Shown: positions 24,201 to 42,166 of the stretch, in pieces
How the letters are laid out: each line of letters starts with the position of its first letter
How positions within the stretch are numbered: the stretch's first letter is position 1
Assembly (NCBI RefSeq): GCF_039555335.1
Contig: NC_092629.1
Location: 7,487,432 to 7,551,431, forward strand
DNA length: 64,000 bases
Origin: Amphiura filiformis
Lineage: Eukaryota > Echinodermata > Ophiuroidea > Amphilepidida > Amphiuridae
Direction: 5' to 3'
The notes under the pieces: generated by a model
Databases searched by the model: none
Seen by the model: only the letters and a program-made list of their open reading frames with translations
What the model was told of the DNA's origin: nothing
Made by a program: the position numbers and the translations under genes

Positions 24201-27200
24201 TCAGCTTCTAAATAATTATACAGTTCAGTTGAATGCATAAACATTACCACATTTACTACGGTGGTCAATGGCATGTCATGTCTTTGTTGTGACATGAACA
24301 GCACGTTATCATATTTCGGTAGCGTGACCTCACAAGAACGGTCAGCTAATTTACATATTAAATTGTCGAAAACGGCCAATCAGCGAGTAGAAAAGATATT
24401 GTTTGGGTCCTCACCTTTGTAAAGGCCATGACGTCGATTTATTTTATGCAAATCACATTTTTGGGAACTGCTGCAACTTTTTATTTTTATTTTTTAGGTC
24501 AACCATGAATGATCCTAGCGTTTAGGTCTAGGTCCGGGGACACTACAAATTTTTTTTTTTAATTTGGTACCGGGCAGGGTATTTCCTGCCGGTAATGTAA
24601 TCTCGGCGGGTACCGAATACCCGCCGAAAATGCCAGCCTTAGTGCTGAGGCTTGTGGATTAATGTCTCGAGAGGCGTTGTGCCTGTGCGTAGCGCACTAT
24701 AAATTACTGCACTTTTTTGTTTTTTTAGTCTTTGCACTTTACAATTAAGTATGTCTGACATTAATTTCTTTTCTATTCTTGTCTAACCTTGCAGCTGTAG
24801 CCAGCGCAGTTCGTACCAGTCTAGGACCCAGAGGTATGGATAAGATGATTCAGAGTGGCAACGGGGATGTGACAATTACAAACGATGGGGCTACTATACT
24901 CAAACAGATGCAGGTGCTGCACCCAGCAGCTAAAATGGTAAGAGGATGAGGATCGATGGAATAAGAATCCAGAAAAGTTGGGATATGAAATTTAGATATT
25001 GGCAACAAGGGAAAAAAATTACAGGGCTTTGTTTTGTGAAAAAGTAGAACGAAGTTGTGGCAAATTTTGTGTGAAGTGGGAACTACTTGCATTCAGCTGC
25101 ATATTTATTTTATTGAACCATAATGATAAATGTTTACCCTAACCCTTAACCCTAACCCTAAAGGTTAAAGAGCTATTGCGGGCCACTATGGTTGCAAAAA
25201 GAATTTTAACTCTTTTAGGGTCAGCTTAAAAGCTGACCAGCTAATAGTTGGAAAATGCTGGTACACTATTCTGGCATGCAAAAATGAGGTCTTGGGACAA
25301 TTTCAGCTTCAAAAAGTAGCTCAGTCAATCCGGTCATGAAAACAAGAGGCTAACAGGGAGATATTTCATGGTAACTGGCAAATAGAGCCTAGAGCCTGCT
25401 TAAGTTTTTCCCTTGGTTGACAAACTAGATGTTAGCTATTTAGAAGTTAAATTTGAACAGTTCTTTTTAAAATTTGTTCCAATGTGCAAATGATGTCATT
25501 CTAGATCCAACTCTGAACCAGCAGTGTGGATACTCCAAGGAACCTCTGATGCACATTGTCTTTCACACAAGAAATTTTTAATAGAATATTTAGTGGTGTT
25601 TGTGAACCTGTTGGATACAGAGTATTGCATCATGAGTAGTAGCAAAGTCAGATGATGTCATCAAAACAATTTAGTGAAAGTGTTTTTACAAAAAGGTTGG
25701 CTGGCAGCTCTGCTAGTATCATCACGAAACCTGCAAAATCTATACAGTTTTCAACAACTCTTCCTATACCTTTGAACAGGAGCCAACCGTTGTTAATCCG
25801 TGATGAATCCATAGTTCAGTAGCGTACGTGTTACGCATGAGCGCGTAAAATTCGTCATGCCTGGAACATACTGCGTAAACATAAACTCTCTTATGTTGGC
25901 GGTAGCAGCTAAATATTACCGCTTTATTCTTTAGTTTTATTGCTGATATCAACAGAGAAATACCGCAATCTTCTTATAAGGTTGAGTTGCAGTGACAAAC
26001 GTACATTCCGAATGAAATAATCATGTGAATTAGACATCTTTAGCTTGTTTCGTTGTTGAAAGGGTTTCAATCATGTTTCACTGTTGTTCATGACCGATTA
26101 ACAACTCGCGTCCGGCGCGTCTGCGTGTTAAAGCTGCCCTCGCGAAGTAAACCACTCAACATGATTGAATCCCTAAGTGATCTGTCAAATGTCAATCAGG
26201 GGTACTGTTAGATTTTAGAAGGAAGGTTAGGTTAACATTTTCCCATTTAAAAATGATTAGTCCCCAGACTAGAGATTAATGAACCTTACGTTGATAACCG
26301 CTTAATGTTAATTTTGTGCCCCAAAACCCAAACGCTTTAAAATTTCAAAGTATTTAGGGGCCTGAGCTTTCGATTCTAGCAGGATTCTAGCAAAGCTTTT
26401 TACAAGAATTTGATCCCATGGTGCAAGTTAGCATGAACCCTGTGGGTGTACTTGTATGTGATTTGGACACTCACTATGCTATTCAACTGCTTGCAGCACA
26501 AAAATGTTAACTGCTAAGGCTGCTTGGAGCACATTTAACTGCTAAGGTTAAAGAAAGACTGTTAACATCTTTGTGTGCCTTTTATTAGGCAAAAAAAAAA
26601 AATTGTTTTTCCTCCACAGCTTTGAAAGAGTACGTGCAGGCGAGCGGATTTTTTTTAATTTTAATTTTTTTTTAAATTTGGATTTGGCGTATTCCTGGAC
26701 CTAGCTAGAGCTAAATACTACAATCATTCATGGTGACTTAAAAAAACCACATTTTGTTTCTTTAATATGCAGTTAAAGTTATAATTTGTGTTCATGTCAT
26801 AATCTTTTAATGATTTCAAATCCAATGTATTTTGAAGTGACTAAAAATAATAGACTATGACATGAACATAGGTTATAACTTTGCATATTGAAGACACAAA
26901 ATGTTTTTGGGGGGCTTTTTTTACTTTCAACCATGAAAGATCTTAGTATTTAGCTCTAGCTAGGTCCAGAGATACTCCAAAAAAAAAAAAAAAATGAATT
27001 TTACTTATTTTTATATTTAAAATAATAGAAAAAAAATATTGGTCAGGCCTTAATCTGAGGAGCGGGCGGTGGAGGACAAACAAACAACTTTTTTTTTTTT
27101 TTTTTAGTCTCAGCACTCGGCAGTTAACCTTTTTGTGTTCCAAGCAATTATAATAGGTTTGCACAAGGTATTAGAGCAGTGCATGATTTCTGTTCTTTTG

Positions 27201-30200
27201 TAGTTGGTAGAGCTCTCCAAGGCACAGGATGTGGAGGCTGGCGATGGAACTACAAGCGTGGTGGTGTTGGCTGGTAGTCTGTTGGATGCTGCGTCTAAAT
27301 TATTAGCAAAAGGTAGGTTTCGACCAGAGAAAATATCTTACACTTCCCACAATGCATTTCTTCCCAGGTACTGATTTGCTATTGAGTGCAATATTGGTCA
27401 ATAGTGACAAAAATAATCTTGATTAACAGAGCTTATCCAGATCTTGCAATTGAGGTAGGTATTTTTTGGCCTATAGACACATGTTGCACTTCAGTAAATC
27501 AGTACAGGGAAGAAATGCATTATGGGAATCGTAATATATCTGCTCTTTGTTCTGACCAAAGACATGATAAGCAAGATGCCAAGTTGGCGGTGGGTAGTAC
27601 CCAAATAACCAAATTAATTGAGCGTTCATACCACAAAATATTGTTCCGAATATCCCCTTATCCCTCAACCGTCAAGATATTACTTGGTTCCAAATGGCAA
27701 AATGTTTACAATAAAACTATAATAATGACTAGATATGTTTAGTGCATGTGATGTAATACTAGATCCAACTCTGATGTCAATCTGACTAGAGATGAGTGTG
27801 GATACTCCAAGGAACCTCTGATGCACTTAACTGTATATCCTGAGAACTACAAAATGATTTTTTAAGAGTAACAAAGTTAAGTGTAACGCCAGTGGCTGAT
27901 TCAAATTGGTGCATTTACACGGTTGCGTCGCCAGCGTGGGGACAAATCGCTGTTCTACAAGTTTGTGTGGATACGTATACGCCACATGGGATTAGGTTAG
28001 CGCACACGATTCAAAGCTGCCCTGCAAAATGCAACTTGGCATTACTCTCAACTTGAGACAAGACAGACTGTATTTAAATTATTGGTTTGTGAAAATGAAC
28101 ATTTTATTAAAGTCTCTGGTAGTTACAAACTCAGAATGTGCATCTGTTGTCACCTGTGTTTAAGTACTATGATTGGCTGACTGACTTGCTGATTGACCAA
28201 ATGCATTGTTGGATCTTGTTTACCATACGCACGGCCCTAGGATGACATCAGATGCAACATTTCGAGTTCTCTGCCGCCATTACAATTATAACCATTTTTA
28301 ATTCACGGCAAGATAATTTGATACTGCTAAAATATACACTTACACAATTTGTTGTCATCATTATCATGTTGTAGGTATACATCCAACAACAATATCGGAG
28401 TCTTTCCAAGGTGCTTCAAATAAAGCGGTTGAGATCCTTACAGAAATGGCAAATCCAATAGACCTGTCCAACAGAGAAGCACTTCTACAGAGTGCTACCA
28501 CTTCACTATGCTCAAAGGTAAGGGTTAGGCCTGATTTACAGGCCGGCACCACTGTTTGGTTCAACAGAAAAGTGGTTTCATTATCAACTAAATTAGAACA
28601 TCGAGGGCGCTGTTTATTTTAAGCCTAATTAGCATATATAACCAGGTGGTAACGACGTAGGAACTGCCTGTTTGCTAAATAGGAGAAAAATCATAAATGA
28701 GATGGAGAACACAAGCAAATATCTAAATATGATGAAGAAAGTGAACAACAATAAGAAAATTTATGTTTTAATCAAAGTAGTTAGCACCCTCAAGCAAATT
28801 GGCTAAATGTGATAAAGCAAGTGAACAACATTAAGTCTATTTGTACAAAATAAAATTATTTGTGTTTTTCCGCAGGTTGTGTCACAGTACTCTGTTGGCC
28901 CCTATTGCAGTAGACGCTGTTCTCATGGCTCATTTCACACAATGCTTCATACAGTTTTAGTATCTTTTTTTTTTTTTTTTTCCGTAGGTTGTGTCACAGT
29001 ACTCAGGTTTGTTGGCTCCTATTGCAGTAGACGCTGTTCTTAAGGTGGTTGACCCACTTAAGGATGATAATGTGGATCTACAGGATATCAAGATTATCAA
29101 AAAGCTAGGGTAAGCTATTCCATAGTGCAAGGTTCCTTTTATGCGTTAACCATCGCATTTGCGTGCACGTTGTCAAGTGTGTGCATGGAACCTTGTGGAA
29201 ATAATACGTGCTGGACAGCTGATCTCCCCAAAGAGTACAGACTAAGATTTGCTTTGTGTAATGCCATGGTTATTGCCCCATATTGGTTTGTCATGTGTGG
29301 AGACCAAAATAGTGTACCTCTGCTATTTATCTGCAAAACCAGATAACAAACGATAGTGTGCCTCTTGAATGAAGTTTATCACGCTTAATTGGTGTAACGC
29401 TTGACTTGCACAATCTTAAAACAAGGATGTTCTTTAAATCGAAGAGTACCATGTATTATGGTACATGGTAATCCGGAGGTACACTAGTTTGCGTTCCACG
29501 AATGACAGAAAAGCATGGCAGAGTCAGTACTCTTATGGGCTTAATCTCTTTGGCTCTCCCACATGCAAAAAGAACAGCAAGCCAATTATTCTGACAGGTA
29601 AATTAAGTAATTCTTGGCTAACATACTATACCTGTTGCGTCCATGTAGCGTACTAAGCGTGTACTCAATGTAAGGTGCATGCATGCTTTCTTCTGTACTG
29701 TGCTATGTGCACATGTGTTTATCGCGGAGCCACTAGCGTTCCGAGTGTTCGAACTTGGCCAAGAATTATCTAATTTACCTGTAAATTGTTTTTGACAATG
29801 TGCAAATGATGTCATACTAGATCCAACTCTGAACCAGCAGTGTGGATACTCCAAGGAACCTCTGATGCACATTGTCTTTTACATAAGAAATTAAACCGCT
29901 TTAATTTAGGAATTTGATGTTTTTCTAATCATTGAGTCTACTCTCCCCCCCCCCCCCAAGTAGTATTTGCTTGTATATACTAAAGTAACAACTTGCTTGT
30001 TAGCATTTTAACTAACCCAGGTTATTGGGCTTGAATTAAGGTAGCTGTGTACTCTCAGATACGCATGTAGTAAAAGTGCCATAACTTTGTAATTATTCAC
30101 GCAAGACATGTAAAAGTATACATTTTTATAAAGGCAAGACATCAATGAATCTCAATATAAGTACAGTTTTGGTGTAAAAACAACAATTATGAAGAAAATC

Positions 30201-33200
30201 ACAAAAAAGTGAATTTTTGGCAATTTTTTTTCGGTACATCATAACAAAAAAACATTCTTTCCAAAAATTGTTGTTTTGCTTTTTTCTTAATCTTGAGGCA
30301 CCATTCCAAAAACCGTTTTTGTAGTTTTTTGATTTTGGCCTTATTTTTGGAGATATTGACCATATAAGGCATCAAAATGAACTTTTAAAAATTCACAACC
30401 GCCTATTTGCACAAAATGGTGCCTAAAATTGGAAATAGACCAAAATATAAAAAAATGAGAAAACCGTTTCTTAAGTCAATCATGCTTTTTATGATGAGCA
30501 TAATTGCTTTCCTATAGATGATGTATTTATTGAGTTATCGTAGTACCTAAATCGTCATTTTACCGAGAAAATGAACATTGAAATAAAAGGCCCTTGAAGT
30601 TTAAAGTGGTCACATTTTGCACTTTGATCGAAGCTTACAGGGGAATGCGGCAGTTCTCGTTTTTCTACCTTACATTACGTGAACATCGGGTAAATCCACA
30701 GCCCCTTGAGAAGTTTGGGCGAAATCTATTCATATCTTGATGTTTAGATCGGGGGAAAGAACTTAAAAAAATCACATTTTATCAGCTAAAACGGAGCCAT
30801 TTGACCGCTAGGTTTTTGTGAAATCAGTGCTTCCGTGGTGTTTCCAAAAGATGCGCCACGCATGCAGATAAGTGTCGCGTATGCGTAGCGTATCTGTGCG
30901 TTACCAAATTGCGCGATACGCAACGCGATGTGTTGTTGCGCGCGTGTACCTTGCTGGTACAACAAGGATTTTCTTTCCTTTTAAATTTCAAACACGAGTG
31001 GAATAGTGAAATAAAATCCTTAAAATATTGCAGTTGGAGTTTATAAATCTGGATTTTCATTCCTTGTATTTATAAAAAACATAACAAAGTACAAACATAT
31101 AAAAAAAACTCAATTTCGCGAAAGAAACGATGTCTAGAGTACACAGCCGCGTTAACACTCCCTGGCATATTATACCCTTGGTTAGTTGGCTTGGAATGAC
31201 CCATTTGTAACTCCGCCTCATTCTTCTGTTGTTTTTATCATGATTGAGGGTACATAAATATTACTAGTGATTAACGCAGCATTCCAGAGAGGCCCCATAA
31301 TTTCACTAGTTTTCATTATATTTTCACTATATCAGCGGCACTATTGAAGACACAGAGATGGTAGATGGTTTGGTGTTCACACAGAAGGCTGTTGGAGCGG
31401 GAGCACCTACCAAAGTGGAGAAGGCAAAAATTGGGCTTATCCAGTTCTGTATATCACCACCAAAAACTGATGTAAGTATACAAAAAAGGTATAAATGTTT
31501 GTTTGTTTGTTGTAACCCAAAACACCTGTCAACCCCATAAATTCCCCCAAATTCAAAATTCAGGGGGATGTCAGTTACAGCAAAATAAATTTTTTGAAGG
31601 CGTAACAAGCATCTGAACCAGTAAGATACTGTCTTGTTGGTTCAGGTAGATCGGTTATATTATTGGATCATTTTTACTTTTTTTAAACTATGCCCTTCTC
31701 GCGACTCTTTCTAGTACAACATTAGGAAATAATGAAATTATATTCCTTTTTGAAAGTTATTATACTTAATTCTCTGGGTTGATGAACACATTTTAATCTT
31801 CCCCAGAGTAGGCCTAGCCAGTGCACATAAACGTTGAAAACAATCCCAGTGTATCCGGCCTGATTCAAATCGGCGACCTTCGTTATTCTAGAACAATGCT
31901 CTAACCAACTGAGCTAAAGAGGCACGTTGGAGAAGAGCAGAAGATATAAATCTCTAGGTATTAGGTTCGAATTCCTTTTTGTCCAAAAATCTAAGTAGAT
32001 ATTTCTTGTGCAAGTGATGTTAACCTAGATCCATCAGATAACCTATGAAGAACAATTATAACGAGCTTTCATTTGACTGATGCACAAGTTGTCATCTTCT
32101 CTACATTTACCTGGGTGGAGAGAGTTGTAATTTATTCTAGAGATCAGAGCCTCTAACCATTTTCTGCAGTACAAAAATGTGTGCAGTGCTGCGAAATTTG
32201 CCCTTTTCCCTGCAATTTGAATTTTCTCTGTAGTTTGTTAGTCTTGTGCCAAATTTCAGCAAATAAATATGATTTACTGCATGTGAAGAATTCAGATGCA
32301 AAAAATGATGCCATTTTCACACTTGAGTTGAGACCACCAACGTGCCCTAAAATAATAGACAAGATAAGAGTGGCATCAATGAAAAACCTGAAAAAAAGAT
32401 GTAGGGTAACATGCACGGTGCAACAAACTCCATGCGTGCAGATAATGATATTTTATATCTGGCAAAGAATAACCAATTAAAATGTGACCAAAATCATATT
32501 AATATATGAAGGCTTTATTGTATTTCATGTTCTGCAAAATGTATTTTATCGTCTACAAGCCACTCCCTGTAGCCAATCTGGATGCTTTGGCACTCACTGG
32601 TTTTCAAGAGAGAAAATGTGATCAAAACTTTCCAGAACAGATTGTTTTTTGTTTTTTTTGGTCTTCTCTGTCATTCCGAATCTAAATAAAACATAGTGGT
32701 GTTAGTGGATGACTCATAAGTTTGTATTCATTAAGAATTTCTTTTCCAAGTTCTACATTAAAGAAGAACTCAAATTAAAATTAAAAGATACCTCTTGGGG
32801 CCTCAGACTCATTGTGACCTAATTCTGCGAGAATCAATTGATTATCCCGAAATCGGAAGAATTATGTACGCTTCACAAGAGCGTAGTCATTACGGCCGGG
32901 GTGAAAGCTCTGGGGTTCTAGATGCTCACTGGTGCAATCCGAGCCTTATTTATGACCAATATTTTAGAAATATCAGGCCTTGTTTTTTTTAAATTTCCAG
33001 AAGTGCTAAAAATAAAATTGAAAGAAACATTTTTTTCCAATATTGCAAAATAAAGGTAGTTACAGACCTTAAATTACCTGTTAGCAATTTTTTTAAATAT
33101 TCTGATTCAGGTATCTTTTGCCAGCGCTAATCGATTCGGTGATTCATGTCCAAATCGTGCCCCTGCCTCTTTTGGTCCAAATATTTCTTGTCCAAGTGAT

Positions 33201-36200
33201 GTTAACCTAGATCCATCAGATAACATTATGAAGAACCAATCATAACGAGCTTTAATTTGAAAAAGCGTTGACGTCACTACCGAACTTGAGGTGAACCAAG
33301 GAATAACTGCTTATTCGCTAGGTTACCCATATAAGAACTCGGGGAGCTGATGCTGGGTGTGTTTCTTCTGCAAGTCACTGATTGTTGCTGACTGCTGTGG
33401 AGTGTCTTTGGCCAGAGTGGTCAGCAAATTCCTGTAAAGTGTGCTTAGGCTTGTGGGTTTATGCCTGTGCTTAGCACACTTTCCCAAGTTTCTAGTCATG
33501 CTTATGGGAATAAGTCACATTTTTAAACAAAAAAGTTCCTTTTTCGGTCCGATAAATAAGAAGATATTTCTTGTGCAAGTGATGTTAACCTAGATCCATC
33601 AGATAACATATGAAGAACCAATTATAACGAGCTTTATTTTGACTGATGCACAAGTAGTCTCTTTCACTACAAGTTACCTTCCCAGTTCCTTGGTACCCAT
33701 TTTTTTTCCTGAGTGGAGAGAGGCAAACTACAGGATTCCTGTAGACAGTGTGCCTGTGCTGTACTGCTAGTTTTCAGCTACTGCTACTTCAGTTACCATT
33801 ACCAATGATGTTCTATGTTGTTAGTAATTCACAAGGTGGCTTAGCCAAGGTTCTGACCCATGACATGTCCTAAATTATTTCATGTATTCTTTATTTAGCA
33901 GCAATAAGTAAACTTTAAAACATCAAAGTTTGATATGATGGATAAAACTCCCTGTATTTGTATTTACAGCCTGTCTAAAAAAAATTGTGCAAGTGAAAAG
34001 CGCCCTCTTTGGCAATTAGAAAATACAGTTGTGACATATGCTTACATCAACGTCACGGGCGTAGTCTTAGCTCTCAAATGCCGTTTAGTCTGTTCAATTT
34101 GCTTGTTTTAATCTCGAGATATGCTTTCTTAACAACGAAAGGGTAAAATCGCAATTGTGCCACTTTTACTACAGGGAAATCAATGATAGCATCAAGTTTA
34201 TCAAGAGTTCCTTCGTGAAATCAAAAGAATGCATCAATTACACAACAATACAAAATTGTTTATACTGTTTTATCATGATAAAGGTATAATGATTCTCTTT
34301 TTCCACTTACGACAAATTAAACGATAAATAAATATTTCACATTCTGCTGTAAAATTAAATGCATGTGCATGTCAATGATTTTATCATGGTAAATACTGTT
34401 CTTTTTGTCATTCAAGACATGTTAAAAGACCAACAAATATTGCACACTTAAAGGTTAATGAACTTTGACAAGTTCATGAAATTTGACAAATTAATGAAAT
34501 TAGACAATATAATGCACGCGCGACAATGTTGATGCGTCTAATACACGAGCCCCGAAAGGGGGAGTGCATTAGACGCATCAACATCAGCTATCATTGATTT
34601 ACTATTCCCTAGTAAAAGTGGCACAATTGTGATTTTACCCTTTCATTGTTAACTAAATATATCTCGAGATTGAAAAGAGCAAATTGAACAGAACAAACAG
34701 CATTTGAGAGCTAAGACTGTGCCCCTGACGGTGATGTAAGCATAATGTCACAACAGTATTTTCTAATTGCCATAGAGGGCGCTTTTCACTTGCACAATTT
34801 TTTTTGAGATGGCTGTATTTTGGCAATTGTGTTGCAAACAAGCTAGATCAGTGCCCAGTCTCATCCGAAACATTTTGTCAACTTGCCTATTAAGCCAGTT
34901 ACTAGATCGCAGCTTGCCTGTCAGCATTTTGAGTAGCCTAGGTTATATTCTGTAATTCTGTATTGTGGGATTTTTCGCTGCCCTAATTTGCGATTTTATC
35001 CACTCTGGACAGTGTAGTGGACGTTCAATTCACGCTTCCAAATACATTCACTTTAAGTACCATGTGTAATATTTTTGTGGGGTTAAAAATTTGCAGCTGC
35101 CTGCTGGACCTTTAAAGGTGCAAAAACATACAGCATGGGTTAATGCCCGATTTGCAAGCTTAAAAGTAGGCCTAAGTAGATACTTCTTGTGCAAGTGATG
35201 TTAACCTAGATCCATCAGATAACACATGAAGAACCAATTATAACGAGCTTTAATTTGACTGATGCACAAGTCGTCTCTTTCACAACAAGTTTTGTTGAAC
35301 CTTTCCAGTATGTTTGTAGCTAAATGTTTTTACGGGGTGGCGATGCAATATGCACTACAGGATTCCTGGATACAAGCTGAAATTTGTGTAGCAGGTTGTC
35401 AAAAATGGGGAGCATTTTGCTCTGTTACACCAGGTAAATCGAACGCTGGCTATAGCAATAGCTATTGGAACTGACTGAACCCCCAGAAGGGGCAGAGGTC
35501 TGGTTTATCTTTTCAGGGTCAAATGTTGAAAGGCAGTTTTGGCAAAAATGACTGGCACTTGTCAAATCCTAGCTAATATCGTACACTGCACAGCAACAGC
35601 ACTTGATAGAAAATATTGTCTATTCTCACCAAATTTGATTCAAATCCTGGATACTGTAAAGCAGGAAATTTTTGTGGGGTTTAATTTTTGCACTTTTCAG
35701 CGGTCAAACAGGCAGTAACGAATTTTAACGCCACAAAATATTTATTACACATAGTACTTAATGTGAATAGATGTGGAAATGTGAATTAAACACCCACTAA
35801 ACTGTCGAGAAGTGATAAAATCTTGTAAAATTAACCCCGCGAAAATTCCACACTATACAGTAATTATTATTTTTGACATCTTTTGTCTTATTGTAGATGG
35901 ATAATCAAATCGTAGTGTCAGACTATTCTCAGATGGACAGGGTACTGAGGGAGGAGAGAGTCTACATTCTAGAGAGAGTCAAGAAGATCAAGAAGGCCGG
36001 TTGCAATGTGCTTTTAGTTCAGAAATCTATTCTAAGGTATGTACTGATTCCAGGGGTCGAAATAAGATTGGTGAGAATGTGACCCAGTAATGGCCGAATG
36101 AATTCTGACCATCACTTGGCTTGTTGAATTTGTCTATTGTTAGACTTACATTATTTTATCTCATATGTAAACAGACACAATCACAAGGAATTACAACTGT

Positions 36201-39200
36201 AGCGTAGTCATTCAAATGAAACTAATGTGCTGTTTTTGGTGGTGCATATGATGTAATACTAGATCCAACTCCGATGTCAATCTCTCAACTAGAGATATGT
36301 CAGTGTGGATACTCCAAGGAACCTCTGATGCACTGCTGCTTTATACTGCACACAAAAAGGTCTCAAAATATGCAGAACAAAATTATCCTTCTACGCGACC
36401 ACTTGTAATTTAGTTTTGGTGTCTTTAAGAAATGGCTTTTGTTCGCAGTATACATATATTTCATTAAACAGATTAAATATCATTAGTTCAAGCTGTGTGA
36501 TAGCATGAAAATCCAATGTCCGAAACTCAAGCTCTAACTCGCTTTGTTTTTTCTTTTCCCTACAGAGATGCTCTCAATGACTTAGCGGAACATTTCCTAA
36601 CCAAAATGAAGATTATGGTCATCAAAGATATCGAAAGACAAGATATTGAGTTCATTTGCAAGGTGAGAGCCGTTTGACAGAAGTTGCTTGATAGTATCAA
36701 GCGATTAGAACCAGAACTGGCCATTGGGTCGGTAGGTCGATCCTTTTTTTTTTTTCATGGACTCTTCCTCGATTTTTCCTCCATTTTGAAAAGGCTAGTA
36801 TTGACAAATGCTTGATCATTTTATGGTAAAATTTTTTTGTTTTTGGACTGGATTTAAATGGAAATACTTTTTGTTTTCAATCAAATATGCATTTAATAAA
36901 TAAAATGAGTGAATAACAAATGTAAAAGTCCTTGATTCTGTCCAAACTTAAGGGGGTACTACACCCCTCAATAAATTTGTGACTATTTTTGCATTTTTTT
37001 CAAAAACTAATAACACGCTGGTAACAAAAGTTATGTATATTATAGGGCAAGGAATCCAAGTACTACACTGAAATATCAGTGACCCAAGACAAGCGGTTCG
37101 ATACTTATGATAGAAAATGAGGTACCGCTAGGATGTACCTCATTTCCTATCATATTTACTGAACCGCTTGTCTTGAGTCACTGAAATTTCAGTGTAGTAA
37201 TTGGATCCCTTGCCCCAATAATATACATAACTTTTGTTGCCAGTGTGTTATTAATTTTTGAGAAAAATGCAAAAATAGTCACAAATTTACCACAGGGGTG
37301 TAGTACCCCCTTAAGGTTTCTTCTATAATGTGATTGAAAAAAACAAACAAACAAAAAAACCGACCAAAGATATCCAATTTTTGGGGTCGGTCGGTTGAGG
37401 GCAGCCTTACTAAAAGTGATATTTGAAGTAAAAAAATCAGAAATTCTGGGAAAAACTCTTGAATTTCCAATTTTTCTAGATCTAATTTTAAACTGTGCAA
37501 AACAAAATGTCAGTACGATAGAAGTCAAATGACTGTTACCTTTAGCTTCCTTTTTCATTCAAAAATTATAAGGGTATTTATTAGAGGAGAGAATCTATAG
37601 CAGTAAGAAGAGCATTTCTTAGAAGCAAATTTTCACTGAAAAAAGCTTAAAAATTAGGATGAAAATTGCAAAGTATGACTCACTTCTGGTGGTTTTCAAT
37701 TATAGCATCGCCGCCCTTGAAACAGCATATTACTGCAGTAAATACTATGAAATTACATCTGTAAAATGTTAGCGATCACTGAAAACAAACTTACTCCTGT
37801 TTCACATTTATTTGCCACCCAGTCTTTAGGCTGTAAACCAATTGCCAGTGTGGACCACTTTAAGCCCGAAATGTTGGCAACGGCAGAAAATGTAGAGACC
37901 GTCATCACAGGAACAAGCAAGGTGGTCAAGGTGACAGGTGCCGCCACGCCTGGCAAAACCGTGTCGGTGTTGATCCGCGGCTCCAACAAGCTGGTCCTTG
38001 AGGAGGCAGACCGTTCTATCCATGATGCGTTGTGTGTCATCAGATGTTTAGTCAAACAAAAGTAAGTTGCCCTGCATTTGTGGGAGTGGTAAATATTAAA
38101 ATACATTAACTTATTTTATCTGGCCATGATGGGAACGAGCATTGGTCAGATTAGGGACAAATCTGGAGAAGTGAATTATGTGTAATGTTTTAAGTTGAAA
38201 TACATTAATTTTAACTTAAAAAAAAGAAATTAGCTGTTTTGAACATGTTAACCCTCACCGCCAAGGGCCTTTTGGCGACAGGAAGGGAAAGAAGGAAGGA
38301 ATAAAGAGAGAAAACAAAGAAAGAAGTTGTTTGCTCTGGGTGGGATTAGAACCCGAGACCCCTCGCATACCAAGCAGTGGGTCGGCGACACTTTGCCACG
38401 GTTGTTGGGCTTCGCTGGCCAGCAAAACCGTGCCTATATATCACTTAGGGACCGATCGTTATTTACGCCAGGGGGGGAATGGGTGTTTTGGCAAAAATAT
38501 CGACAAAAAATTTCGCGTTCCCCCCTCGCGTCCGCTCAAAATTTTCGCGTTCCCCCTTGTTTTCCCAATTTTCTCCATTTAAAATTTAACAATCCCCCCT
38601 CCTGGTTCAACTAAAAATTTCAGGTTCCCCCTCAAGACCACAAAAAATTTCGTGTTCCCCCTAAATTTACCCATTCCCCCCTGCCATAAATGTTATGATG
38701 AAAAAATTATGTTTTGAAAAAGATGATATCAATTTATGATTTTCTGCTAAAATTTTGTTATTTTTCATTTTTCAACACCTTCATGACTATTATTGGTCGT
38801 ACAGTAAATTTGTATTTGCAGACATCGGCCTCGTCCACTAGCGTTGGGACACAGTTATTTAACGTCAAGTTGGAATTTCAGCGCTATCTGTTCAATCTCA
38901 CAAAAACCCCTTTTCTACAGGTGGATGGACCTTTCAAGTAGGTTCGGTCAGTCAGGCATTTTTTTTACATTTACCGTATCGTTTTCTCAATTAACACCAT
39001 AGAGCTCTGATCGCTGGCGGTGGAGCGCCTGAAATTGAGGTATCCCTGAGAATGATGGAGTACGCTAGAGGTCTCACAGGCATGGAAGCCTACTGCTACA
39101 GGGCGTTTGCAGAGGCGTTGGAGGTCATTCCGTCAACGTTAGCTGAAAACGCTGGTCTCAATCCCATATCAGTGGTTACGGAGCTGAGGAACAGGCATGC

Positions 39201-42166
39201 GCGCGGGGAAAAGACAGCTGGAATTAATGTTAGAAAGGTAAAAGTGGATTTTTGTTGTGTATCACTGTAAAACATTATGTTCGAGATTTGTAAATCACCA
39301 TTATTTTTGTGGGATGTAGATATCGCAAAAGTGGTACTTTTTCAATGCGTTTTGGAAAAAGGATTTTAATCAAAAATATGATAATATTAGAATGGCCAAT
39401 GATGTGCATGATGCGTGATTCCTTGTATTGTGAGGTGTCAAACTGATAAGCTTTTGTGGTGTAGCCAGGACTTTTTCAGGAGGGAGTCAAAAATGGACTA
39501 CAAAGGCCTAAAACTCTTAAATATAGGGATACTATCCCTAATGGCCAGCATCCCATAGGGGGAAAGACTTCCTTCTCACAGGTGGCAGCTGCCCCCTTAG
39601 CTACTCCTCTAGCAGGCAGGTCCTCATAGCTGGAGGTAACTAGACAAAATGCTCCCAGTATGTGACACTGCCCAAGTATCAAAAGTGCGGTCGCAAGAAT
39701 TCCTGAATTTTGAATACAGTGCATATGATGTCATACTAGATCCAACGCTGATGGCTGTTTCAGTCGGTGTGGATACTCCAAGGAACCTCTGATGCACTAA
39801 AACTTAATGTAGCCTCTCCCACAAAGTCAGTAACATGTAGTTTTACCTGATTGTATTAATCATGTTTGGTTTCTTTCGTTTACCAGGGTGCAATCACCAA
39901 TATACTGGAGGAGAATGTAGTACAACCTCTATTGGTGTCTGTTAGTGCTATCAAACTAGCTGCAGAGACAGTCCAGAGTATAATGAAAATTGACGACATT
40001 GTAAGTACATGGCTAACACTTGAAACAACGTCCTGAGTGCAATTCGCAATAGAAGTCGCAATATTGTGAGAAATAACACTGCCAGCGCAAGCTGTAATAT
40101 TGCGAGTTGCACATAGGACGATGGCATCCATCTTGGGTATGGGGTAAGGGAACAGGGGCATACTGGGCCAAAGGGGGAAAATGTAAAGTTTGTCGCCAGT
40201 CGCTACTGCAACTTCATGAGGATTGCACGCCAATATTGGTAATTTTAATGCTAAAATGGGGCAAAATGAGGACAATTGTGGCCTGCCTAAAGCTGGGTTT
40301 AAGGAAGATGCAAAGTGCAAGTTCTGTTAAATTATGTAGTCCCTGTACATTTACCTGGGGAGGGGGAGGGGCTACATTGTCTTCTTGGTTGGTACGCCTC
40401 TGTAAGGAAAACATACTACAATTACTACACATTTGAAATGATTCTTAATCATTCTAAGCAGTATCCATAGGCTTGAAATTTGATATAATTACAGTGCATA
40501 TGATGTAATACTAGATCCAACTCTGATGGCTGTCTCAGTCGGTGTGGATACTCCAAGGAACCTCTGATGCACTGGAAAGTCAAATTGTGCAAAAATCTGA
40601 CTTCACTGTAGTAAGGTACAAGTGCAGGGTCTTTTGGGTGGTATATACATGTAGTAATTAAACGGTGCACATTGTCCTTTAAAAAATGGGATTTTACTAA
40701 ATCATTCGTAAGCATGACAAATGGTATTTGCTATCCGACTTCAAAATATATGATCACAATTAAAAACTAGTATGTTGGCTGTGTTCAGTAATCAGTCTCC
40801 TAAATGAGACTGAGATTGAAGTTCAAAGATTGGTAATATAGGCTGATCAGGCTAGCTAAACAGTCATCCACAAATCCCCAAGCATCTCCCTGGAGGCACT
40901 TGCCAATAAACAGCAGAGCTGCCAACCCTTCTTGATCCTGCAGAAGACTTCCTCATTTGCTGACAATCTTCTGTCTTCTGCAAAACATATTAAATCTTAT
41001 GCATTTGCAGCCATCTGGCTAAATCTTCTGCATTTACAGCCATACATACATACATACATACATAAAGGTATTTATATAGCGCCTTTAAAATTTATCAAAG
41101 CGCTGAACAAGGAAAGAAAGGATGGGGAAAAAAAGAAACACCGCGGAACAAGAAAGAAGCTAACTGAAAAGGTGAGTTTTCAGTTTCTTCCTGAAAACTG
41201 GAATTGATGGAGACTCCCTGATGGCTTTAGGGAGTTTGTTCCATTCCCTCGGGCCAGAGACAGAGAACGTATTTAAACCAGATCCTCTATGTGCCCTAGG
41301 CTGACTAACCATCTGGCTAAGAAATCAAAACAAAATCAATTATACGCCCACTGTCCTGTCCTTATGGAAAAAAAAAAAGTTGAGTAGCCTTGGAAAGCCA
41401 TTTTTAAGGGTCTCAAAATGCTAACATCCAGGAGCTTTTGGGGGCACTGATCCCACGCAAGGCGACTGCCCTTGGCGTCGCGCCACATCCTAAGCTTTTT
41501 TTACACTTCGCTGAATGAAATCTTCTGCATTTACATATTCCAATGTTGGCAGCTCTGTAACAGTCCCCATTTGGCATACAAGGCAATAGTTAACTGTGCA
41601 GAACATTTGATTTATCATAATAATGTGCCAGAGATTACTCAAGCTGTGAATCTGACCGGGAGGGACAATTATCAATTAGTGAGTAATTAGTGGGTTTGGC
41701 CCAAAACTTTTTAGATAGTGATCAGACTATACATTCTTGCAAGGTACATATATGTATGAAACTGATCTTGTACTTACATGTAATTAACTTGATCTTACTG
41801 TCATAGTCCATTTCGCTCCATCGAGACAGTAGCGCCACATGTGATACACACACGATCAAAGGCGGTGTATCTATAAGGCACAGTCACTTCACGCCACATC
41901 GCATGCTACGGATGCACCGCCTTTGATCACATGTGTATGATGCACGGATGCCACTGTCTCGAGGATGCCAAATGGACTATAGCTTGTGTGGGTAGAAATG
42001 CCAACGTACAGATTTCAACTTTCTAATTATGTCCATTGATAATCCATCCCACGTTGCCCAACTATATCCGAAAATGATGTGTGCCATTTTGAACAGCGCC
42101 TACATACTAAAATGATTTTCGTACATATTTTTTTTCTGTTACTTGCAGGTTGTAACTGCACGTTGA
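3218..42166 (+). CDS. CCT4: T-complex protein 1 subunit delta (CCT4), complete, 12 coding exons
   Basis: CCT4 is one of eight paralogous subunits of the cytosolic TRiC/CCT chaperonin, which folds actin, tubulin and other clients with ATP. Coding exons: 3218-3353, 24795-24937, 27204-27312, 28375-28517, 28988-29109, 31336-31471, 35897-36036, 36566-36662, 37823-38061, 39003-39237, 39887-40000, 42149-42166. All introns are GT-AG and every junction keeps phase, giving 1632 nt and 543 aa (human CCT4 is 539 aa). Diagnostic pieces are SNITAAK and MDKMI (exons 1-2), [19 protein letters not shown] (exon 2), the nucleotide-binding GDGTTS (exon 3), [15 protein letters not shown] (exon 7), RGSNKLV and [14 protein letters not shown] (exon 9), AGGGAPEIE and [10 protein letters not shown] (exon 10). 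The last exon adds only VVTAR. Intron 1 is 21.4 kb and hosts transposons; introns 2, 3, 5, 6, 7, 10 and 11 host snoRNA-like elements. Coding is free of frameshifts. Confidence 0.97.
3354..5017. repeat. Start of CCT4 intron 1: dispersed repeat found again inverted at 20935-21430
   Basis: No coding is seen. Blocks at about 3785-3835, 3885-3935 and 4870-5000 reappear as reverse complements, in reverse order, at about 21368-21420, 21255-21300 and 20940-21110. The block from 4730 on begins TTAA then GGTGGTACTACACCCCC and matches one arm of the TTAA foldback element at 36952-37310. This suggests a larger, non-coding DNA-transposon family, here interrupted by other insertions. Around 3500-3600 the sequence is a low-complexity run rich in CATG. 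Confidence 0.55.
4095..4488. mobile_element. Foldback MITE, about 394 bp
   Basis: The left end AGGCCAAGTAACAAAAATAA (4095 on) is matched by its reverse complement ending at 4488; the complementary arms run for about 34 bp. A copy of AAAATCGGTGAGGG follows the left arm and another precedes the right arm. There is no coding capacity. Flanks are TA-rich, compatible with a TA target duplication, but this is not decisive. Confidence 0.6.
5018..5156. repeat. Repeat A, copy 1
   Basis: About 138 bp nearly identical to 9992-10128, beginning TATACATTTCCTTTGGAGG. Copy 1 abuts the repeat family at 4730-5017 abruptly, which suggests an insertion boundary. Part of it is open in one frame but I recognise no protein. 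From 5157 to about 6590 I see no gene or clear repeat. Confidence 0.7.
6590..8050. repeat. Degenerate minisatellite whose units contain a small hairpin
   Basis: The recurring core is TATGGGAGCATTCCCATGAA with spacers such as CGTGTATA; units are irregular, roughly 20-45 bp. The core ATGGGA-GCAT-TCCCAT is a six-base-pair hairpin with a four-base loop, so the array is a string of potential hairpins. Several open frames on both strands here are artefacts of the repeat. Sequence quality of the repeat is best around 7000-7560 and fades on both sides. Confidence 0.75.
8051..9848. other. Intron 1 stretch with nothing recognised
   Basis: AT-rich non-coding sequence. I see no open frame with recognisable protein, no clear inverted or tandem repeat and no RNA gene. 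Confidence 0.5.
9849..9990. repeat. Repeat B, copy 1
   Basis: 142 bp starting GTAGTTCGCGGCTGACGAAC and ending GCGAATTAGGAAATA. Almost identical to 18956-19096 in the same orientation. It is followed within two bases by repeat A copy 2. Confidence 0.75.
9992..10128. repeat. Repeat A, copy 2
   Basis: Near-identical direct copy of 5018-5156. Its left edge abuts repeat B, so A and B may be parts of one larger element. From 10129 to the transposon end at 10524 nothing else is recognised. Confidence 0.7.
10562..10920 (+). repeat. Left subterminal motif array of the piggyBac-type element
   Basis: Seven copies of a motif close to GAATCTCACTAAATCTCAC lie at about 10564, 10613, 10729, 10757, 10800, 10853 and 10894, plus one inverted copy near 10645. 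Each contains two ATCTCAC half-sites spaced ten bases apart, about one helical turn. The same motif is clustered at the right end, so these are likely recognition sites for a transposon protein (inference). Confidence 0.7.
10921..11669. other. Non-coding part of the transposon between left motif array and hairpin repeats
   Basis: AT-rich, no open frame of note. Several TTTATT strings (AATAAA on minus) near 11298-11345 could serve as polyadenylation signals for the minus-strand transposase transcript, at about 1.1 kb below its stop codon. Confidence 0.35.
11670..12110. repeat. Cluster of GGCTGAAAAGCC hairpins downstream of the transposase
   Basis: GGCTGAAAAGCC occurs exactly at 11670, 11740 and 11840, with one-base variants at about 11778, 11885 and 12096. 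Each is a four-base-pair stem closed by GAAA on the plus strand. A separate block at about 11924-12020 (ATGGCTCAGA ... GGCATCGATC) is partly repeated at 12279-12360. The cluster lies in the probable 3' UTR of the transposase if that is read on minus. Confidence 0.6.
12459..14367 (-). CDS. piggyBac-family transposase (PGBD4-like), main exon; intact catalytic core
   Basis: The uninterrupted frame 14156-12459 encodes 565 aa. It carries the DDE_Tnp_1_7 fold signatures: IAIDEAM (first Asp about residue 197), [10 protein letters not shown] (second Asp about 271) and MGGVDHNDQ (third Asp about 403, with a further Asp at 406). The C-terminus (about 511-556) is a Cys/His-rich domain with [14 protein letters not shown] and CFASYH, which in piggyBac binds transposon-end DNA. 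A basic stretch precedes it. Upstream, 14367-14190 is open in another frame as an acidic Ser-rich leader (DSSDEEM), with acceptor CAG at 14370-14368; a one-base shift near 14190-14215 separates it from the main frame. The enzyme excises and re-inserts the transposon in the nucleus. All three catalytic aspartates are kept, so the core looks functional; the N-terminal leader appears indel-damaged or misassembled. Confidence 0.9.
14793..15065 (-). CDS. Putative upstream acidic exon(s) of the transposase gene, frame-broken and gapped
   Basis: On minus, acceptor CAG (15068-15066) opens an acidic, Gly/Asp-rich frame starting [14 protein letters not shown]. It passes into a GAT/GAC microsatellite, where the frame slips to [12 protein letters not shown], then into a run of N (14862-14888), and ends DPSGSDDG at a donor after 14793. 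All borders use phase 1 with GAT GAT G just before the donor, as in the exon at 15751-15784 and the acceptor at 14368. This fits a chain of small acidic exons, a common N-terminal flavour of piggyBac transposases. The microsatellite makes the exact reading uncertain. Confidence 0.45.
14862..14888. other. Assembly gap, 27 N
   Basis: A run of N inside a GAT/GAC microsatellite in the putative acidic exon of the transposase. The repeat is probably collapsed or mis-sized here. Confidence 0.99.
15240..15560. repeat. Local direct duplication in transposase upstream intron
   Basis: A block of about 100 bp containing TGGATGACTGAACTTGC and TCCAATGGTCCTAGGATCAA occurs twice (about 15313-15421 and 15436-15545), including GGGAGGGG and GTGGGGTA. 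It is intronic to the putative multi-exon transposase and otherwise featureless. Confidence 0.7.
15751..16103 (-). CDS. Transposon 5' reading frames: Arg/Gly-rich ORF overlapping a short acidic first exon
   Basis: A 108-codon frame (16103-15777) encodes a basic protein with [18 protein letters not shown], an Arg/Gly-rich middle ([13 protein letters not shown]) and a tail ending STSSDQYE. Its stop overlaps a start in another frame at 15784: ATGAGTAA contains both. The second frame reads [12 protein letters not shown] and meets a good donor (GTGAGT) after 15751 in phase 1, matching the downstream acidic exons. Either the two are separate products of one transcript, or a one-base error splits a single Ser/Asp-rich exon. 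A TATAAAAA string on minus about 100 bp upstream of 16103 supports transcription from here. No homologue of the Arg/Gly-rich part is recognised. Confidence 0.45.
16190..17200. promoter_or_regulatory. Divergent promoter region with repeated E2F-like and CCAAT motifs
   Basis: A TATA box on minus (TATAAAAA, about 16200-16207) and one on plus (TATATATAA, about 17189-17197) face away from each other. Between them, a half-unit of about 50 bp is repeated at 16229-16852. TTTCCCGC, an exact E2F consensus, occurs at 16285, 16336, 16399, 16490, 16542, 16639 and 16731; its reverse GCGGGAAA occurs at 16949 and 17114. Several one-base variants fill the gaps. AGCCAATCAGA (CCAAT-type) recurs near 16365, 16470 and 16669, and TCACATGA/TCATGTGA E-box-like strings recur throughout. 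Motif identity is read directly; regulation by E2F or NF-Y is inference. Confidence 0.6.
17242..17521 (+). CDS. Small transposon frame with piggyBac-like Cys-rich finger, no catalytic domain; frame-shifted
   Basis: Just downstream of a plus-strand TATA box (about 17189-17197), ATG at 17242 begins an acidic [16 protein letters not shown], open to 17382. A frame one base over is open from 17165 to 17521 and ends with [18 protein letters not shown] then CVPCRLYLC and [10 protein letters not shown]. The CxxC, CxxCxxxxC and His pattern resembles the transposase's own C-terminal Cys-rich domain. The acidic start plus finger, without the catalytic region between, looks like a miniaturised transposase relative or a separate DNA-binding protein. 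A one-base shift or an error near 17340-17390 would join the two. It points away from the transposase. Confidence 0.45.
17530..17625. repeat. A-rich simple repeat after the small plus-strand frame
   Basis: Repeated AAAAAATAC and poly-A blocks immediately follow the stop codon of the plus-strand frame. This could be a decayed polyadenylation tract or a simple-sequence expansion. Confidence 0.6.
17860..18310. repeat. Minisatellite of about 54 bp with alternating unit types
   Basis: About eight to nine units contain TTGCGCTGTGGCTTATCAGC and alternate between CATTACAGTAGAA and CAATACAGTATAA starts, so the true period is a dimer of about 108 bp. It lies inside the transposon on the right side of the plus-strand frame. 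Confidence 0.75.
18365..18780 (+). repeat. Right subterminal motif array of the piggyBac-type element
   Basis: Eight copies of the bipartite ATCTCAC-TAA-ATCTCAC motif at about 18372, 18423, 18481, 18533, 18580, 18620, 18673 and 18718, in the same strand orientation as the left array. Part of the array is a tandem duplication of about 110 bp (18365-18475 and 18476-18585). A last half-site, inverted (GTGAGATTC), overlaps the terminal repeat. Confidence 0.7.
18956..19096. repeat. Repeat B, copy 2
   Basis: Near-identical direct copy of 9849-9990. Without the transposon the two copies would be about 850 bp apart. From 19097 to 19982 nothing further is recognised. Confidence 0.75.
19991..22267. 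mobile_element. hAT-type non-autonomous transposon, 2277 bp, containing nested elements
   Basis: Ends are TAGAGTTGGGCGACTA (19991 on) and its reverse complement finishing at 22267. An 8-bp duplication GCTGTTAC flanks it exactly (19983-19990 and 22268-22275), the hallmark of hAT insertion. Subterminal GTCGCGACTA palindromes occur at both ends. No transposase frame is present. A second hAT-like foldback element is inserted within it, and a repeat shared with 3785-5000 (inverted) occupies about 20935-21430. Confidence 0.85.
20153..20732. mobile_element. Nested hAT-like foldback element, 580 bp
   Basis: Ends TAGTGATGTGGTCG and CGACCACATCACTA; 8-bp duplication ACCAAAAC on both sides (20145-20152 and 20733-20740). 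Inside are GTCGACAT-rich subterminal sequences and two long complementary arms (about 20273-20410 and 20443-20585) separated by some 30 bp, so a transcript would form one long hairpin. Confidence 0.85.
22276..24794. other. End of CCT4 intron 1, no gene recognised
   Basis: Non-coding. A short block with TACCGGGCAGGG and ACCCGCCGAAAATGCCAGCC at about 24565-24640 resembles 23355-23400, so a dispersed repeat is likely. The end of the intron has a good branch/pyrimidine tract before CAG at 24792-24794. Confidence 0.5.
25135..25165. repeat. Short telomere-like CCCTAA string
   Basis: Three to four imperfect CCCTAA units. Too short for a true interstitial telomere; a similar TTAGGG string is at about 50845-50870. 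Confidence 0.6.
25481..25557 (+). ncRNA. C/D box snoRNA-like, family 1 copy 1 (CCT4 intron 2)
   Basis: Terminal stem AATGTGCA/TGCACATT (25481-25488 with 25550-25557) encloses C box ATGATGT (25490-25496), guide AGATCCAACT (25503-25512), D' box CTGA (25513-25516) and D box CTGA (25546-25549). The guide directly abuts D' and is complementary to AGUUGGAUCU of 18S rRNA; the fifth base rule points at the first G of UUGG, equivalent to human Gm683 as I recall the sequence. Sense orientation in the host intron fits processing from the CCT4 pre-mRNA. Confidence 0.72.
26590..27110. mobile_element. Foldback element in CCT4 intron 2
   Basis: The arms pair around a centre near 26845. GGACCTAGCTAGAGCTAAATAC on the left answers GTATTTAGCTCTAGCTAGGTCC-like sequence on the right, and TGTTCATGTCATAATC answers GACTATGACATGAACA. 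Outer A/T-rich ends include TCCTCCAC and its inverse. A partial relative lies at 24490-24560. No coding. Confidence 0.65.
27741..27827 (+). ncRNA. C/D box snoRNA-like, family 1 copy 2 (CCT4 intron 3)
   Basis: Stem AGTGCA/TGCACT closes the element. C box GTGATGT (27748-27754), guide AGATCCAACT (27761-27770) touching D' CTGA (27771-27774), a D'-to-C' loop that differs from other copies, and D box CTGA (27818-27821). The 3' guide GATACTCCAAGGAACCT before D is identical to the other copies. Confidence 0.7.
28866..28925 (+). pseudogene. Truncated duplicate of CCT4 exon 5 start, with its splice acceptor
   Basis: About 60 bp (TTTTCCGCAG then GTTGTGTCACAGTACTC) repeat the 3' splice site and first 54 nt of exon 5 (28978-29041). 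The copy lacks five bases (AGGTT) present in the exon, so splicing to it would shift the frame. It lies 112 bp upstream in intron 4. The acceptor itself is intact, so cryptic use is possible. Confidence 0.85.
29794..29876 (+). ncRNA. C/D box snoRNA-like, family 1 copy 3 (CCT4 intron 5)
   Basis: This copy has the longest terminal stem: GACAATGTGCA (29794-29804) with TGCACATTGTC (29866-29876), 11 bp perfect. C box ATGATGT 29806-29812, guide AGATCCAACT 29819-29828, D' CTGA 29829-29832, D CTGA 29862-29865. Outer stem bases differ from the other copies yet stay paired. Confidence 0.75.
30040..31151. mobile_element. Non-autonomous TTAA-flanked transposon, 1112 bp, CCT4 intron 5
   Basis: Ends carry GGCTGTGTACTCT-like inverted repeats (GGTAGCTGTGTACTCT at 30040 and its counterpart ending 31151) and TTAA stands immediately outside on both sides (30036-30039 and 31152-31155). 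TTAA duplication indicates piggyBac-type mobilisation. No protein is encoded; this could be a deletion derivative or a MITE. Confidence 0.65.
31850..31930 (-). repeat. tRNA-derived SINE head or tRNA pseudogene
   Basis: On minus, GCCTCTTTAGCTCAGTTGG followed by TTAGAGC is a perfect tRNA A-box/D-arm, and about 40 nt later GATTTGAATC is a weakened B box. No complementary acceptor stem is present, so this is not a functional tRNA gene; a SINE head or relic is likelier. Confidence 0.6.
32005..32088 (+). ncRNA. C/D box snoRNA-like, family 2 copy 1 (CCT4 intron 6)
   Basis: Stem CTTGTGCA/TGCACAAG, C box GTGATGT (32014-32020), CTAGATCC shared with family 1, possible C' ATGAAGA, ACGAGCTTT, and D box CTGA (32077-32080). 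ACGAGCTTT is complementary to AAAGCUCGU of 18S rRNA, only three bases upstream of the family 1 target, but it is not adjacent to the D box, so the modified base is unclear. Confidence 0.62.
33187..33260 (+). pseudogene. Decayed family 2 snoRNA-like copy 2 (CCT4 intron 6)
   Basis: The 5' half matches family 2 (AAGTGATGTTAACCTAGATCC, ATGAAGAACC, ACGAGCTTTAATTTGA) but the stem has CTTGTCCA and the D box and 3' stem strand are lost. Expected to be non-functional. Confidence 0.7.
33570..33654 (+). ncRNA. C/D box snoRNA-like, family 2 copy 3 (CCT4 intron 6)
   Basis: Complete: CTTGTGCA (33570-33577) pairs with TGCACAAG (33647-33654); C box GTGATGT; D box CTGA (33643-33646). Homology to copies 1 and 4 extends outside the stem (AGATATTTCT before; GTCTCTTTCAC after), suggesting recent duplication inside the intron. 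Confidence 0.63.
33966..34816. mobile_element. Foldback element of about 850 bp, CCT4 intron 6
   Basis: The left arm (ACAGCCTGTCT then TTGTGCAAGTGAAAAGCGCC) and right arm (GGCGCTTTTCACTTGCACAA to GGCTGT) are inverted copies for about 240 bp. A second perfect hairpin, GTTGATGCGTCTAAT with its complement, sits near the centre-right (34525-34585) with a loop containing GAGCCCCGAAAGGGGG. No coding. Confidence 0.75.
35186..35270 (+). ncRNA. C/D box snoRNA-like, family 2 copy 4 (CCT4 intron 6)
   Basis: Stem CTTGTGCA (35186-35193) with TGCACAAG (35263-35270), C box GTGATGT, D box CTGA (35259-35262). Closest to copy 3, including flanks. Confidence 0.63.
36241..36334 (+). ncRNA. C/D box snoRNA-like, family 1 copy 4 (CCT4 intron 7)
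   Basis: Stem GGTGCA/TGCACT with one G-U pair. Guide AGATCCAACT (36261-36270) is kept but D' is CCGA instead of CTGA. The D'-C' region is longer and folds on itself (ATCTCT with AGAGAT). D box CTGA 36325-36328. Ends 231 nt before exon 8. Confidence 0.65.
36952..37310. mobile_element. TTAA-flanked foldback MITE, 359 bp, CCT4 intron 8
   Basis: Starts GGGGGTACTACACCCC and ends GGGGTGTAGTACCCCC, with TTAA outside both ends (36948-36951, 37311-37314). The arms are near-perfect inverted copies over the whole length, meeting at a centre with GGTACCGCTAGGATGTACC. Same family as the half element at 4730-4870. Confidence 0.8.
38330..38430 (-). repeat. tRNA-like SINE fragment
   Basis: On minus, GGGTTCTAATCCCACCC is a good Pol III B box, with an A-box-like GTGGCAAAGTG about 55 nt before it. 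The body does not fold as a tRNA, so this is a probable SINE head. Next to it (38470-38690) lies a dispersed repeat with recurrent TTCGCGTTCCCCC. Confidence 0.5.
39718..39798 (+). ncRNA. C/D box snoRNA-like, family 1 copy 5 (CCT4 intron 10)
   Basis: Stem AGTGCA (39718-39723) with TGCACT (39793-39798). Guide reads AGATCCAACG, one base changed next to D' CTGA (39748-39751). D box CTGA 39789-39792. It ends 88 nt before exon 11, close to the 70-80 nt spacing usual for intronic C/D snoRNAs. Confidence 0.7.
40492..40574 (+). ncRNA. C/D box snoRNA-like, family 1 copy 6 (CCT4 intron 11)
   Basis: Stem CAGTGCA (40492-40498) with TGCACTG (40568-40574); C box ATGATGT 40500-40506; guide AGATCCAACT 40513-40522; D' CTGA 40523-40526; D CTGA 40564-40567. 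All parts present and canonical. Confidence 0.74.
41030..41520 (+). repeat. Dispersed repeat with CATA microsatellite and TATATAGCGCCTTT motif, CCT4 intron 11
   Basis: A short (CATA)n tract leads into TTTATATAGCGCCTTTAAA and AAAGCGCTGAAC, a combination common in short interspersed repeats of marine animals. TCTTCTGCATTTACA flanks both sides (about 41028 and 41520) and may be a target duplication. No coding. Confidence 0.5.
41813..41980. mobile_element. Foldback MITE, about 168 bp, CCT4 intron 11
   Basis: ATAGTCCATTT at the left and AAATGGACTAT at the right; the arms also share GAGACAGT/ACTGTCTC, CACATGTG and ATCAAAGGCGGTG/CACCGCCTTTGAT. Nearly the whole element pairs into one hairpin. Confidence 0.75.

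Follow-up and report, generated by a model that had tools for sequence, protein, structure and literature searches.

Putative intronic box C/D snoRNA copies with predicted guides for 18S Gm683 and Um116 in the CCT4 gene of the brittle star Amphiura filiformis

Box C/D snoRNAs are recognised by a C box (RUGAUGA), a D box (CUGA) and a closing terminal stem, and in human it is usual for one host gene to carry several C/D copies. In the excerpted text of PMC6466398, SNORD19 is assigned to 18S-G683 with GNL3 as its host, while an excerpt of PMC8393311 assigns SNORD42A/B to 18S-Um116 with RPL23A as host. A survey of chicken snoRNAs (PMC2653536, in excerpt) reports a series that resembles the one described here, namely three SNORD19/HBII-108 copies in GNL3 introns 5, 7 and 9, as well as a U42 homologue in RPL23A that likewise carries two guides, the second of them for U4-C8. 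Recombination of guide functions is described in the same excerpt (PMC2653536). Genes for chaperonin subunits, to which CCT4 belongs, are likewise on record as intronic hosts, with ACA20 and ACA29 in TCP1, and ACA15 and, in chicken, an ACA28-like RNA in CCT6A (PMC2653536 and PMC6466398, both in excerpt).

The window analysed here, which is the whole stretch of 64 kb of Amphiura filiformis DNA, contains a CCT4 gene whose exons could be assembled from the window with GT-AG borders at 11/11 introns. The spliced product is 100% identical over 543 aa to the Amphiura filiformis T-complex protein 1 subunit delta-like, the top match among the best 120 of 7998 scored database proteins. An earlier note on this DNA had proposed six sense-strand C/D elements in CCT4, one per intron. 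All six were located at their positions and on that strand, each inside a different one of the 11 CCT4 introns (copies A1 to A6, Table 1), and four diverged relatives (B1 to B4) were found in a further intron.

Table 1. Positions within the 64 kb window of the CCT4 gene, the six A copies and the four B relatives.
Feature	Location	Positions	Strand	Remarks
CCT4 host gene	12 coding exons	3218..42166	+	product 543 aa
CCT4 exons 1-6		3218-3353, 24795-24937, 27204-27312, 28375-28517, 28988-29109, 31336-31471	+	
CCT4 exons 7-12		35897-36036, 36566-36662, 37823-38061, 39003-39237, 39887-40000, 42149-42166	+	
A1	intron 2	25480..25558	+	C box 25490, D' guide 25503-25512, D box end 25549, terminal stem 9 bp
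A2	intron 3	27741..27827	+	C box 27748, D' guide 27761-27770, D box end 27821, stem 6 bp
A3	intron 5	29794..29876	+	C box 29806, D' guide 29819-29828, D box end 29865, stem 11 bp
A4	intron 7	36237..36338	+	C box 36248, D' box CCGA, stem 10 bp (6 Watson-Crick, 4 G-U)
A5	intron 10	39718..39798	+	D' guide AGATCCAACG (final base altered), stem 6 bp
A6	intron 11	40492..40574	+	stem 7 bp
31-nt block (C' region, D guide, D box, stem 3' arm)	A1	25524..25554	+	
31-nt block, other copies	A2 to A6	27796-27826, 29840-29870, 36303-36333, 39767-39797, 40542-40572	+	
B1	intron 6	32005..32088	+	8-bp stem, C box, D box; other 3' half
B2	intron 6	33182..33260	+	D box and 3' stem arm lost
B3	intron 6	33570..33654	+	8-bp stem, C box, D box
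B4	intron 6	35186..35270	+	8-bp stem, C box, D box

Several other features of the window were recorded in passing. Intron 4 holds, at 28856-28928, a decayed second copy of the beginning of exon 5 together with its acceptor-like tract (compared with 28968-29045). Within intron 1, an unbroken frame of ~580 aa on the minus strand (12459-14213) matches DDE_Tnp_1_7, which we take to be of piggyBac type. The neighbour of CCT4 at 815-2009 on the minus strand is a FAM161A/B family gene, with PF10595 matched by two frames; presumably FAM161A adjoins CCT4 in human too, which suggests that the FAM161-CCT4 neighbourhood is an old synteny. A minisatellite of ~73 copies of 42-bp units, with long in-frame open stretches on both strands, occupies 46287-49357, and part of an alpha-amylase gene, reaching ~220 aa past the Alpha-amylase_C match, lies at 54561-56405 on the minus strand.

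The anatomy of the A copies is that of box C/D snoRNAs. A C box, an exact CUGA D box and a terminal stem of 6-11 bp are present in 6/6, the presence of these parts in each copy having been described in the earlier note, and the D' box reads CTGA in five copies and CCGA in one (A4). The C box is RUGAUGU throughout, with U and not A as its seventh base. A4 has a long spacer with a predicted internal hairpin. The 31-nt block that spans the C' region, the D guide, the D box and the 3' arm of the stem is exact in all six copies and absent elsewhere on the plus strand of the window.

Sequence constraint differs among the parts of the element: pairwise identity is 100% in the 5' arm of the inner stem, 87% over the C box with the bases that precede the D' guide, 97% for the guide itself and 92% for the D' box, and it returns to 100% across the 31-nt block; the D'-C' spacer has 56% (after exclusion of 171 gapped cells) and the flanks have 26-31%. 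Judged on sequence, this profile is that of a guide snoRNA. The best conserved part of the A copies is the half that carries the D guide, not the D' guide 10-mer.

The outer part of the terminal stem covaries. The inner five pairs of the stem are invariant across the six copies; five of the outer six pairs show changes on both sides, and the remaining one deviates by unpaired cells only. In the outer stem, 12 cells differ on both sides, where shuffles have 5.6, and the covariation score is 0.430 compared with 0.151, with 0/500 shuffles as high in either measure. The claim that the outer stems differ and still pair by covariation is thereby borne out by the score, which exceeds 500/500 shuffles; the number of pairs changed on both sides (5) was reached by 187/500, and the number of further pair types by 23/500. 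When the register was shifted by 1-3 columns, 17-44% of cells paired, compared with 83% in the true register. Coming from six related sequences, the covariation is good evidence of a stem, if not independent evidence. Single-strand fold z-scores ranged from -1.3 to -2.9 over the six A copies and were weak in two (-1.3, -1.4).

Both strands of the window were scanned for a C box followed after 45-110 nt by a D box, with a stem of five or more Watson-Crick pairs, using a C-box pattern that was composed after inspection of the A copies and permits their T at the seventh base. The scan returned 12 matches, comprising nine on the plus strand (the six A copies and three B relatives) and three on the minus strand. 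Over 50 Markov shuffles, the same scan averaged 0.24 matches per strand and never gave more than 2; the three minus-strand matches exceed this maximum, so the shuffles understate the real background.

A covariance model built from the six A copies, termed R1, was searched against the 64 kb on both strands. It recovered the A copies at E 2e-21 to 6e-19 (98-110 bits), but these are its own training set and their scores therefore prove nothing; the informative results are their isolation and the relatives. The four B relatives scored 19-32 bits (E 1.5e-4 to 0.09), and nothing beyond the six A copies and four B relatives was found at E < 1 on either strand of the 64 kb, the next match having an E of 1.1. 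CCT4 introns 1, 4, 8 and 9 gave no match at E < 1, nor did the ~25 kb of the window outside CCT4. The earlier note had seen no such element elsewhere in the window, which holds for the six A copies at this threshold and has to be amended for the four diverged relatives in intron 6. Minus-strand R1 matches over four of the six A copies (E 1.6 to 4.9) probably arise from the near-palindromic stem.

At default thresholds, no Rfam family reached its gathering score anywhere in the window and every copy was missed. The best A copy scored 27.4 bits with SNORD19B (gathering 50), and A3 scored 14.5 bits with SNORD19 (gathering 35) and 20.3 bits with SNORD42 (gathering 39), for which no copy attained the gathering score. 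Matches of A3 to SNORD24, SNORD69, U105B and SNORD121A were discarded at 23-25 bits against gathering scores of 37-49, as were matches to miRNA models and SNORD112 from an E-value scan, whose scores fell far under gathering. A lone C/D-like element with a 6-bp stem lies antisense in CCT4 intron 1 (11508-11575, minus strand) and may be due to chance.

The guide regions of the A copies can be compared directly with the Rfam consensus sequences. The D' guide, AGATCCAACT, is exact in 5/6 copies and ends in G in A5, which is the single variant in the last base that had been noted earlier. The SNORD19B consensus has AAGAUCCAACU directly before CUGA, in the letters and the register of this D' guide. 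A D guide of the SNORD42 type, AAGGAACC, is present in 6/6 copies and agrees in letters and register with AAGGAACCACUGA of the SNORD42 consensus; over a longer stretch, the consensus CAAAGGAACCACUGAUGCAC is matched by CCAAGGAACCUCUGAUGCAC in A3, and the other five copies read likewise.

The 18S used for the target test came from contig L002, which carries a bacterial-MAG title and whose final 937 nt are eukaryotic 18S, starting with base 1 of the 18S (RF01960, 784 bits); it is the 18S of another eukaryote and not the brittle star's own, and represents the 5' part only. Contigs L001, L003 and L004, in which short 18S ends are joined to other DNA, were left out of the test, and L005, the one candidate found among viral contigs, was rejected as a source of 18S, its match lying in a stretch without an 18S signature or Rfam match. 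On the L002 18S, the D' guide forms 10 bp in five A copies and 9 bp in one, and in every copy its fifth base falls on the first G of UUGG (G641). The D guide forms 8 bp at 113-120 with U116 as the fifth base, also in all six. Shuffled versions of this 18S contained the D' 10-mer in 2/2000 cases and the D 8-mer in 48/2000. A search with whole elements for at least 8 complementary bases found an extra 8-mer off any box in A4, A5 and A6, and its occurrence in 3/6 copies shows the level to be expected by chance. A sea-urchin 18S, presumably reading GGUUCCUUGGAUC, would extend the D duplex to ~11 bp.

Taken with the SNORD19B and SNORD42 registers, the fifth-base positions on the L002 18S point to two known methylation sites. 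The D' guide appears to match 18S AGUUGGAUCU at the site of human Gm683, and is thus of the SNORD19 type that the earlier note had recognised. That account was right for the D' guide but incomplete, having missed the SNORD42-type D guide for Um116 in 6/6 copies, and an A copy is very probably a double guide for Um116 and Gm683.

We consider it highly likely that the A copies are paralogues, six box C/D snoRNA genes housed in CCT4 introns, each a double guide for Gm683 and Um116, derived by splicing and stabilised by their stems. As far as can be told from DNA, the earlier proposal of intronic C/D snoRNA paralogues in CCT4 stands, with the motif scan (6/6), the R1 search and the covariation all in agreement. 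The reading draws on the anatomy, the covariation of the stem, the constraint on boxes and guides, and fifth-base complementarity at both sites to the 18S of another eukaryote. Splicing and trimming of the CCT4 pre-mRNA would release the snoRNAs, their terminal stems would stabilise them, and snoRNPs would presumably assemble on the resulting RNAs. By pairing of the D' element with 18S AGUUGGAUCU, fibrillarin would then be brought to Gm683 (in human numbering), and by pairing of the D element with 18S GGUUCCUU to Um116, with methylation predicted at each.

The position of the copies within their introns deserves comment. A5 is 88 nt away from where its intron ends; for the other five copies the figure is 227-1645 nt, which is beyond the optimum assumed for mammals and counts against the snoRNA reading. 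These distances are not decisive, because PMC10234308, in excerpt, reports that a terminal stem can often make up for a branchpoint at a suboptimal distance and that expressed human snoRNAs are found mainly farther out than the assumed optimum. Also to be set against the reading are the Rfam scores under gathering, the D duplex of only 8 bp on an 18S from another eukaryote, and the weak folds of two copies. In 6/6 copies, moreover, the D' guide can pair with the invariant GUGUGGAUAC of the C' region, by which the guide may mask itself; since most of the pairs involved are invariant, this pairing is neither supported nor refuted.

The B relatives have GTGCA/GTCCA, the C box and CTAGATCCA in common with the A copies and differ in the 3' half, although an end in TGATGCAC is common to the A copies and three of the four. 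B2 is probably a pseudogene. Three of the relatives have fold z-scores of -0.5 to 0.3, and the scores with Rfam SNORD36 are 29.1, 27.0 and 25.7 bits against a gathering score of 30. A SNORD36-like role at Am668 was considered and rejected: the three relatives compared with 18S all contain ACGAGCUUU, with 9 bp to 18S AAAGCUCGU, but seven unpaired bases separate this match from the D box, so that the fifth-base rule fails at A668. On the 937 nt of L002 18S, box-adjacent matches at D differ among the three copies and reach at most 7 bp without G-U, those at D' (CAGA) reach up to 7 bp in 3/3, and no convincing target by the fifth-base rule was found for the three. We regard the B relatives as derived copies, either functional or decaying.

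It is quite possible, if somewhat short of an even chance, that only some of the A copies are expressed and that the rest are recent pseudogenes of one functional snoRNA, in which case their number would say little on dosage. Many annotated snoRNA copies are unexpressed according to an excerpt of PMC12309372, and the proportion of human snoRNAs expressed is given as 31.5% in that of PMC10234308. Within CCT4, a single change in the D' guide of A5, another in the D' box of A4 and the loss of the D box from B2 would all be in keeping with decay. Against this, 6/6 A copies keep an identical 31-nt block, the C box core, the D box and a pairing stem, while the spacer and outer flanks differ. Such partial expression is in any case compatible with double-guide snoRNA genes for at least one copy.

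The flanks bear on how the copies arose. Homology among the A copies mostly stops at the element ends, continuing for 16-20 nt downstream in A1/A3 and 14-18 nt upstream in A1/A6; A2 and the B relatives have 10-12 nt in common upstream. Over 84 nt, A5 and A6 show 96% identity, and their flanks agree no better than by chance (14/52 and 15/52); the flank identities are 21/52 and 20/52 for A1/A3 and 19/52 and 15/52 for A2/A4. The B relatives have longer common flanks, up to ~100 nt in B3/B4, as would be seen in ordinary DNA duplication. For the A copies, element-limited copying and strong constraint after an old duplication both fit, and most C/D copies are attributed to recombination within one host in the excerpted part of PMC8178906. 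A more far-reaching proposal, which we think unlikely, would make CCT4 a dedicated snoRNA factory, with ten copies related to one double guide that joins functions separate in vertebrates. The B lineage would have exchanged its 3' half and gained a non-canonical or non-rRNA target, and copies would have spread between introns by RNA-mediated or conversion-like events that took in the snoRNA alone.

The same abrupt ends of homology in most A pairs, and the near identity of A5 and A6 between unrelated flanks, could also be left by a mobile element (a snoRNA retroposon) scattered genome-wide and present in CCT4 by chance. We find this improbable, as 10/10 elements are on the sense strand in introns of one gene, none appears at E < 1 in intron 1 or the other ~25 kb of the window, visual inspection of the 60-nt flanks reveals neither a poly(A) tail nor a target-site duplication, and the flanks common to the B relatives are in the style of ordinary duplication. 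That the copies are a non-snoRNA structural or splicing element common to the introns, with guide matches due to chance, would suit their intronic sense position and the fact that splicing can be affected by intron elements, but is scarcely credible for sequences that jointly have C and D boxes, a stem and two guides in the SNORD19 and SNORD42 registers.

If the double-guide reading is true, one RNA from a chaperonin gene serves two 18S sites for which vertebrates use separate snoRNAs (from RPL23A and GNL3), and the locus illustrates how guides recombine and hosts are switched in animals other than vertebrates. It would also provide a series of duplicates within one gene (intact, changed in one base, exchanged in the 3' half, broken) for the study of snoRNA birth and death. 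A term search found no mention of snoRNA in the main text of either of two brittle-star genome papers, and the literature searched has very little on guides for rRNA methylation in echinoderms. The excerpted literature on snoRNA hosts, chaperonin/CCT and 18S guides names no C/D host role for CCT4 and no Um116/Gm683 double guide, which is weak evidence of absence.

Compared with the systems outlined above, the A copies are like SNORD19/SNORD19B (HBII-108; GNL3 introns, 18S Gm683) in having the guide AGAUCCAACU adjoin CUGA, but unlike them the guide stands at D' and not at D, the host is CCT4 and the score is under the Rfam gathering score. With SNORD42 (U42A/B; RPL23A introns, 18S Um116) they have in common AAGGAACC one base before the D box and an end in UGAUGCAC, whereas their second guide is for Gm683 and their host is again different. 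The B relatives have CGAGCUUU of the guide region in common with SNORD36 (U36; RPL7A introns, 18S Am668), from which they differ in the distance of the match from the D box and in that A668 is not the fifth base. The snoRNAs of TCP1 and CCT6A are of the H/ACA class, whereas the CCT4 case is a multi-copy C/D one. The kind of snoRNA is thus known, while the CCT4 host, the pairing of Um116 with Gm683 and the copy series appear to be new.
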